34,954 bases of DNA from a virus: the IMG/VR virus record IMGVR_UViG_3300031772_005039, positions 1 to 34,954 of that record, one strand, 5' to 3'. Below the pieces are notes generated by a model. The model saw nothing but the letters and a program-made list of their open reading frames with translations. It searched no databases and was not told where the DNA came from. Positions 4,893 to 18,280 of the stretch are shown one piece after another. Every line of letters starts with the position of its first letter. Within the stretch, counting starts at the first letter, position 1. A program made the position numbers and the translations under genes.

Positions 4893-5155
4893 AAAGATTT
4901 TATTTAAAACGTGTTATCGATGCATCTGGTGTTTCTGGTGTTGGTAACGTCGCCGAAGGTTGTCAATTTGACAATGGATGGGTTGCACTAATTTGGCTTA
5001 CAAATAAAACAGTAATGAGTTATTATGAGTCAATTGAAACTGCCGTTGAAATTCATGGCCATGGTAATAATACACAATGTATATGGGTTGATGATGAATC
5101 ATCAAATGTAAGAATTCTAAGTGATCACGTAGAAACAGGATCAATATCGCGATGA
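4889..5155 (+). CDS. Small hypothetical protein
   Basis: An 88-residue protein. An N-terminal basic strand (MKRFYLKRVID) is followed by VSGVGNVAEG and a WVALIWL strand. This pattern recalls a short beta-rich fold seen in small phage proteins, but no family can be named. It overlaps both neighbours by four bases (ATGA), so it belongs to one translational unit with the upstream small protein and the downstream GT4 gene. The region between about 45 and 75 is rich in His, Asn and acidic residues. Confidence 0.65.
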   Translation: MKRFYLKRVIDASGVSGVGNVAEGCQFDNGWVALIWLTNKTVMSYYESIETAVEIHGHGNNTQCIWVDDESSNVRILSDHVETGSISR

Positions 5156-17304: not shown

Positions 17305-17325
17305 ACTATTTAAGCCTGTACAAGT

Positions 17326-17333: not shown

Positions 17334-17385
17334 AGATTTATATTTAAAATATGAAACAATACGAATTGTAGATTTTTGCTCGTGG

Positions 17386-17443
17386 TCCTCCGTACATAAC
17401 ACATTCAATAAATGTTTGTGTTACTAAGTTACTTTATGGAGGA
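17386..17443 (+). promoter_or_regulatory. Hairpin masking the Shine-Dalgarno sequence
   Basis: TCCTCC (17386-17391) is exactly complementary to the SD GGAGGA (17438-17443), which lies three bases from ATG 17447. Pairing extends inward through G-U, T-A and A-T to 17394/17435, giving nine pairs. A second stem, TAACACA (17397-17403) with TGTGTTA (17417-17423), caps it with a 13-base loop. A direct repeat GTTACT-AA-GTTACT lies at 17420-17433. In the RNA this would hide the ribosome site until opened by temperature, a protein or a ligand. It is a prediction from pairing only. Confidence 0.65.
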
Positions 17444-17446
17444 TAT

Positions 17447-17845
17447 ATGAATATTAATTTACAAATGTTACGTGCAAAAATTCGTGGATTTCAGGTTACA
17501 AGCGAAACAATTCGTAAAAAGATCAATAAAACGTCTAGGAAAACTAGACATGATCTTTGGAATAAAAAGAGAATATTAGGAAATTATTGTAGAAGTCATT
17601 TAATCGCTTATGGTTTATTACGAAATATTTCATATGATAAAATTGAAAAACATTCGTTGAACAATAAACCAGATTTTGTTAAAATTCTATCAATTGTTAT
17701 AGAACACACACCATGGCCACACAACACAAGCGAATTAAGAAATTGCACACATCTACGCGATCTAGAAAATCGCATGATAGAAAAATACCAATACCAAAAA
17801 TCAAAAAGCCCACAAAAAGCCCCCGAAAAAGGCGAAAAATTATGA
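17447..17845 (+). CDS. Small basic protein, hairpin-controlled
   Basis: A 132-residue, strongly basic protein with many Lys, Arg and His, mostly helical up to about 100, then a Lys/Pro-rich tail (SKSPQKAPEKGEKL). The basic N-terminal half (RKKINKTSRKTRHDLWNKKR, about 23-42) suggests binding of RNA or DNA. No known family is recognised. It has one of the strongest SDs in the window, GGAGGA, placed inside a predicted hairpin. Its stop overlaps the PTH2-like start as ATGA, so it would be coupled with that gene. An RNA-binding autoregulator is one possibility. Confidence 0.7.
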   Translation: MNINLQMLRAKIRGFQVTSETIRKKINKTSRKTRHDLWNKKRILGNYCRSHLIAYGLLRNISYDKIEKHSLNNKPDFVKILSIVIEHTPWPHNTSELRNCTHLRDLENRMIEKYQYQKSKSPQKAPEKGEKL

Positions 17846-18195
17846 CCGGTGTAAACCATCAAATAAAATTAGGAGATAAACTCTACCTTATCACAAGGCG
17901 CGATATACCGCCCGGATATCAGGCTGTTCAATCTTGCCACGCTATCCGCCAGTTTATCCAAGATCATCCAGAAATCGATAGTGATTGGTTTAAATCTTCA
18001 AATTATTTAGCGTTGCTTTCAGTTGAAGATGAAATTGAATTAATGAGATTAATAGTGGGTGCAAATGATAAAAATCTTCGTTGGTCGGCTTTTCATGAAC
18101 CCGACGTCGGGGGGAAAATAACGGCAATTGCAATTGAACCTCACCCAAAAACAGTAGATTTATGTAAATTTTTACCATTGGCATTAAGTGAATAA
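17842..18195 (+). CDS. Peptidyl-tRNA hydrolase 2 (PTH2)-like protein
   Basis: A 117-residue protein of the PTH2 size (about 115). KLYLITRRDIPPGYQAVQSCHA (about 13-34) matches the core K-x-R-D...GK-x-AAQ-x-HA region, and EPDVGGKITAIAI (about 86-98) matches the D-x-G-x-T strand that ends the domain. PTH2 enzymes release peptides from peptidyl-tRNA and so recycle tRNAs from stalled translation. The frame reaches back to ATG 17713, but the ATG at 17842, overlapping the upstream stop, gives the normal domain length and is preferred. A tRNA gene lies ten bases downstream. Confidence 0.8.
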   Translation: MTGVNHQIKLGDKLYLITRRDIPPGYQAVQSCHAIRQFIQDHPEIDSDWFKSSNYLALLSVEDEIELMRLIVGANDKNLRWSAFHEPDVGGKITAIAIEPHPKTVDLCKFLPLALSE

Positions 18196-18205
18196 ATAGA
18201 AACTC

Positions 18206-18280
18206 GACCTCGTAACTCAATAGTAGAGTGACTGATTCTAAACCAGAAAGTTGCGGGTGCGAATCCCGCCGAGGTCTCCA
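18206..18280 (+). tRNA. tRNA, anticodon CUA (probable amber suppressor)
   Basis: A 75-base cloverleaf. The acceptor GACCTCG/CGAGGTC is perfect, discriminator U, CCA encoded. The D stem is ACTC/GAGT with a short loop that lacks the usual GG. The T stem is GCGGG/CCCGC with loop TGCGAAT, where position 55 is G instead of U. The anticodon loop is TTCTAAA, reading CUA. The anticodon stem has only three Watson-Crick pairs (C-G, T-A, G-C) flanked by A-A and A-C mismatches. Other registers give no pairing, so CUA, decoding UAG, is the best reading. The weak stem makes activity uncertain; identity is unknown. Confidence 0.72.

Follow-up and report, generated by a model that had tools for sequence, protein, structure and literature searches.

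What does a stop-reading tRNA decode in a phage that does not use the stop codon as sense? The virus record IMGVR_UViG_3300031772_005039, 34,954 bases long (the window hereafter, probably a fragment), raises this question, as it encodes a tRNA with anticodon CUA at 18206-18280 next to a gene for a PTH2-type peptidyl-tRNA hydrolase. We propose that this tRNA is probably a working UAG decoder with a private target, the stop codon of a short leader that gates the operon formed by PTH2 and the preceding gene U. Stop-reading tRNAs of phages without recoding have so far lacked a known target; the candidate described here is a specific one, at which stop codon, reading frame and size of the anticodon loop predict one another.

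The CUA tRNA and stop codon usage

The original prediction of a complete 75-base cloverleaf with a CUA anticodon, for which ARAGORN was named as a check, is borne out. ARAGORN called one tRNA in the window, at these positions on the plus strand and with anticodon CTA, and Rfam family RF00005 matched 18206-18277 with 60 bits (gathering score 29, E 1e-10). The ARAGORN label 'tRNA-Pyl' means nothing beyond the CUA anticodon. Free folding gave -25 kcal/mol (z -3.1), the acceptor stem has seven pairs and CCA is encoded; with this fold, its anticodon, U33 and A37, the tRNA has the structure of an amber suppressor. The oddities noted before are all there, namely an anticodon stem of three pairs around the loop TTCTAAA (A27-A43 and A31-C39 are unpaired), a D loop (AATAGTA) in which GG is missing, and G55 in the T loop TGCGAAT. 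In L086, a contig from a near-identical phage, these features are all retained except one D-loop base, and the A31 mismatch recurs in several CUA tRNAs of the closest relatives. The exact tRNA sequence had no match in viral contigs, and a comparison with known tRNAs, meant to identify the amino acid from the nearest one, gave weak matches only. A scan of viral contigs found 16 loci with PTH2, each with one or two stop-reading tRNAs (CUA or UCA) nearby, and more distant PTH2 relatives add UUA anticodons; several of the UCA tRNAs were mislabelled by ARAGORN because their anticodon loops have eight bases. In total, 37 distinct stop-anticodon tRNAs adjoin relatives of the PTH2 gene, so that, judged from sequence, the window tRNA is no isolated chance match.

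The pyrrolysine system (pylT/pylS) also combines a CUA tRNA with few UAG targets, and pylT shares its ARAGORN label with the window tRNA. It has one base between the acceptor and D stems and a 3-base variable loop, whereas the window tRNA has two bases (TA) and a 5-base loop, and no pyl genes were seen among the window proteins scanned.

It had also been suggested that the phage can decode UAG as an amino acid. One part of this stands, since comparative evidence indicates that the tRNA reads UAG, but the codon is not reassigned. No in-frame TAG was found in the genes of the window and coding density was not raised when TAG was read as sense; therefore, UAG decoding is not a genome-wide rule in this phage. 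Code 15, with UAG decoded by the tRNA throughout the phage genes, might be suspected from the near absence of UAG as a stop, as in recoded phages (the 38 open reading frames (ORFs) of the window end in 19 TGA, 18 TAA and one TAG), and from the Lak phages, which carry a distant PTH2 relative and are TAG-recoded. The in-frame TAGs in many genes that mark code 15 are, however, missing within the 35-kb window; genome-wide reassignment is refuted for the window and retains almost no probability. UGA recoding in the relatives with UCA tRNAs was rejected as well, as UGA is still their main stop, and the TGAA stops of these phages were not clearly avoided, which had been considered as a sign of four-base reading. 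The scan of codon usage that served to look for in-frame stops lacks sensitivity close to start codons, because it missed the stop near the start of PTH2 in phage LR756501 described below.

A leader stop matching the linked tRNA

The original prediction overlooked a single regulatory UAG (17369-17371) that is the likely target of the tRNA. Blind enumeration of the window gave one leader candidate, MKQYEL, which lies about 0.8 kb 5' of the tRNA and upstream of gene U (Table 1). In all CUA members of the window clade, frame 0 after the UAG is open and encodes RGPP. The hairpin predicted downstream in the window has a free energy of -22.7 kcal/mol (z -3.9), which none of 200 shuffles reached, and similar hairpins are predicted in related leaders. 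Within the arm, the pair predicted at the last base of the Gly codon is A-U, U-A, G-C or C-G, depending on the locus; because these pairs are taken from single-sequence folds, they lean towards pairing. A short leader, an RGPP-like motif and a hairpin that hides a Shine-Dalgarno site upstream of a gene are the elements of a RAPP/RGPP attenuator, and all three are found here. In other leaders, RGPP is a strong ribosome-arrest motif, as shown in vivo and in vitro (PMC12992588).

Table 1. Positions of the proposed regulatory elements, the operon and the tRNA in the window.
Feature	Position	Strand	Remarks
Leader ORF MKQYEL	17351..17371	+	ends in the proposed target UAG
Read-through segment IFARGPP	17372..17392	+	in frame with the leader; RGPP codons 17381-17392
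Hairpin (predicted)	17380..17450	+	base-pairing between the RGPP codons and the Shine-Dalgarno site of U, GGAGGA (17438-17443)
Gene U	17447..17845	+	132-aa protein without Pfam match; conserved 5' of PTH2 across the window clade
PTH2-type peptidyl-tRNA hydrolase	17842..18195	+	ATG overlaps the TGA of U (ATGA)
tRNA, anticodon CUA	18206..18280	+	ARAGORN and Rfam; begins 10 bases past the end of PTH2

The stop of the leader matches the linked tRNA in 19 of 19 related leaders (UAG with CUA in five, UGA with UCA in 13 and UAA with UUA in one). Moreover, the reading frame follows the size of the anticodon loop. The spacing from the stop to RGPP is 0 mod 3 in all eight cases with 7-nucleotide loops and 1 mod 3 in all 11 with 8-nucleotide loops, a shift that four-base reading of UGAA would require. 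Leaders of CUA relatives end in TAG, after which RGPP is encoded in the same frame; those of UCA relatives with 8-nucleotide loops end in TGAA, and after the TGA the same frame closes before the hairpin arm, while RGPP is encoded in the +1 frame, which stays open. The combination expected of a four-base decoder, an 8-nucleotide loop with a matching four-base site and a coding +1 frame, was present in 11/11 UCA loci with 8-nucleotide loops and not in the window. Loci outside the set in which the pattern was discovered also fit, both in the clade (L249, L254 and L258) and in other branches (L283, L290, L169 and L307), the latter with RGPP in frame 0 and 7-nucleotide loops. Blind enumeration of leader ORFs agrees in 18/19 cases, L307 being without an ATG leader. 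No RGPP leaders were found in mycobacteriophages and Lak phages.

Outside the window clade, the stop is usually placed in PTH2 itself, which begins with ATG, one to a few codons, TAG and the conserved domain, e.g. M-S-TAG-I-K-x-G-D-K. Such a stop at codon 2-8, in genes whose domain is preceded by no further start, was found as TAG at 56 and as TAA at one of 75 loci. It corresponds to the linked stop-reading tRNA in 44/44 of these direct gates that have a tRNA in the stretch examined, and the matched pairs form 18 clusters at 70% identity. Starts composed of a Shine-Dalgarno site, ATG, a few codons and a stop occurred at PTH2 with TAG in 19 cases and with TAA in one, and elsewhere in 484 kb three times, once per stop. 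L296 has a TAA gate and a UUA tRNA, and its supported sister L279 has TAG and CUA; stop and anticodon also change together between the window and L088 and between L097 and L090. As far as sequences can tell, these three sister switches are the firm independent events. A gate at codon 2-8 of the window PTH2 was considered and is absent, as the window clade has no stop there.

Two further arrangements of PTH2 starts were observed. In LR756501 (L174), a 735-kb phage that is not TAG-recoded, PTH2 has in-frame TAGs at 4992 and 5094 (codons 3 and 37). In the mycobacteriophages Myrna, IkeLoa and ScoobyDoobyDoo (L171, L172 and L180), the gene starts with ATG or GTG, TAG and GTG; gating is uncertain here because the TAG just precedes a GTG with better Shine-Dalgarno spacing, and promoter-like spacing would allow a transcript that starts at the first of the start codons.

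Proposed control of the operon and its alternatives

From the parts, their linkage, the matches of stop with anticodon and of frame with loop size, and the predicted hairpin, all of them read from sequence, we infer that the tRNA is charged, that read-through and stalling occur, that the Shine-Dalgarno site is released, that PTH2 is active and what the circuit is for. The tRNA would compete with the release factor at the UAG that ends MKQYEL. Decoding of this UAG as an amino acid would let the ribosome continue through IFARGPP and pause at RGPP, thereby covering the anti-Shine-Dalgarno arm and freeing the ribosome-binding site of U. Translation of U would then lead to PTH2 by coupling at the ATGA. 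Such a circuit would gauge how well the tRNA beats termination and respond by producing a peptidyl-tRNA hydrolase, which may recycle the peptidyl-tRNAs that accumulate under poor termination. In distant relatives the same logic would operate in a simpler form, the stop being placed within PTH2 (codon 2-8). We also favour, with more reserve, a wider claim, namely that the dedicated tRNA of these large phages mainly reads one stop gating the PTH2 operon, and that in some relatives (not in the window) a UUCA tRNA with an 8-nucleotide loop reads UGAA and takes the ribosome in +1 into the arrest peptide, so that the ribosome-binding site is unmasked. If true, a private tRNA and one stop codon would serve as key and lock for an operon, which is a new type of translational control, and natural four-base decoding would acquire a regulatory role in relatives.

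Several observations weigh against this proposal. No clear Shine-Dalgarno site precedes the ATG of the leader, the leader hairpins of several loci (L088 and L090) are only weakly better than shuffles, and the odd features of the tRNA could mean low activity. At a few loci (L303, L294 and L168) the tRNA is present without a clear gate, and conversely 13 gated loci have no stop-reading tRNA in the flanks examined. The giant phages LR745206 and LR756502 have a TAG-gated PTH2, which predicts a CUA tRNA, but none was found in their tRNA clusters, and other gated genomes, searched for a CUA tRNA with a loose pattern, gave no convincing candidate. Furthermore, the frame rule was noticed before it was scored, and kinship among the loci means that the counts overstate their independence.

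The two giant phages could imply that what the leader detects is release-factor loss or near-cognate read-through, in which case the switch would work without the tRNA and the latter would be accessory. However, from branch to branch a change of the gate stop goes with a change of the anticodon, which indicates that the tRNA normally matters, and we regard this explanation as unlikely. The tRNA could instead be a general low-level suppressor that reads through many stops of the host or the phage, e.g. to disrupt host proteins, with the leader as an incidental feature. UAG stops are scarce in most CUA phages (33/569, versus 64/452 in UCA phages), so that the phage itself would be spared. But UGA is the main stop of the UCA phages, UAG is common as a stop in mycobacteriophages with a CUA tRNA, and general suppression does not predict that leader stop, frame and loop size match; its probability is accordingly low. 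Lastly, the weak anticodon stem, the D loop without GG and G55 would suit a decayed tRNA or a non-decoding decoy, e.g. bait for tRNA-cleaving defences. Against this, the clade has retained a stop anticodon, which varies only among CUA, UCA and UUA, jointly with the gate codon. Neither decay nor bait predicts such joint change, and it seems very improbable that the tRNA does not decode.

The proposed decoding of a private stop by a tRNA can be compared with several known systems. In prfB, the gene for release factor 2, an early in-frame UGA gauges the efficiency of termination and controls its own gene through frameshifting by normal tRNAs. The window likewise has an early stop that would measure termination, but differs in having a dedicated tRNA beside the gate and a peptidyl-tRNA hydrolase as the product. 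SecM, ApdA and ApdP are arrest-peptide attenuators with RAPP or RGPP (PMC10951233, PMC12992588), in which a leader with an arrest motif likewise overlaps a hairpin masking the Shine-Dalgarno site of the gene downstream. They sense protein export, whereas the arrest motif of the window would be reached only after a stop is decoded by a phage tRNA. The TAG-recoded code 15 phages, Lak and crAss-like (PMC7162821, PMC9523058), encode a stop-reading tRNA and use UAG as an amino acid, as is proposed here; they have many genes with in-frame TAG, while the window yielded a single candidate, the regulatory UAG. A further comparison is with the standard-code jumbo phages XacN1, with two CUA tRNAs (PMC5852040), and Atu_ph07, with a UCA tRNA (PMC6102473). 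Like the window phage, these are large, do not recode and encode both a stop-reading tRNA and a peptidyl-tRNA hydrolase. Unlike in the window, the hydrolase is not linked to the tRNA and a target has not been found, although the authors of the XacN1 study searched for one (PMC5852040). We rejected the same gate in both phages, as their hydrolases are outside the gated branch or only distantly related. By analogy, the overall scheme would join the principle of an arrest-peptide attenuator to that of a nonsense-suppressor tRNA. The kinds of components are known; a tRNA and a stop codon reserved for each other in the service of one operon were not encountered in the open-licence literature, most subscription journals being outside the search.

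The U-PTH2 operon and its surroundings

Matches to baseplate-wedge and many glycosyltransferase families indicate a myovirus-like phage, and relatives of the aldehyde dehydrogenase and PTH2 genes of the window are located on contigs that reach several hundred kb. The PTH2 protein matched PF01981 (E 3e-7, 31 bits versus a cut-off of 23), and its AlphaFold model (pLDDT 81) matched solved PTH2 structures in Foldseek (E 2e-7, about 24% identity), to which profile matches also link it. The protein thus has, according to these models, the domain and fold of PTH2 and is a putative hydrolase. Plasmids and cellular genomes yielded no members of this PTH2 branch at the sensitivity used. The branch occurs in cultured mycobacteriophages, with a CUA tRNA 3' of PTH2 in all three examined (IkeLoa, Myrna and ScoobyDoobyDoo).

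The UGA that ends U was considered as the target through which the tRNA would control PTH2 and was rejected, as it is found in CUA phages too. Across the window and its relatives, U invariably ends in UGA and lies in frame +1 to PTH2, with several different spacings; A-runs occur shortly 5' of the stop and the PTH2 frame is open upstream. The junction could possibly be a -1 frameshift fusion or simple coupling. Upstream of the leader, CCTGTACAAG at 17315-17324 is repeated at the corresponding place in several relatives and is a possible promoter or operator.

At L087-L101, genes 1-5 kb 5' of PTH2 resemble by eye those for NMN adenylyltransferase, nicotinamide phosphoribosyltransferase and a macro-domain protein; together they may form an NAD-repair set that counters defences. 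Six genomes (G011, G012, G013, G018, G019 and G022) contain a second PTH2 paralogue with a higher Pfam score, in the five closest to archaeal-type PTH2; it is often located inside the main tRNA cluster. One of these genomes, the 309-kb contig G011 with two CUA tRNAs, has an HD-domain-like gene adjoining PTH2 (L087:5875) with one in-frame TAG exactly at the Gln of nine relatives, which could be a second read-through target or a mutation. The 607-kb phage G001 has two adjoining CUA tRNAs (L059, 2592-2757), and the variable arm of one of them is long. In the TAG-recoded Lak phages L176 and L177, a tRNA with a UUA anticodon lies about 0.6 kb 5' of the distant PTH2 relative.
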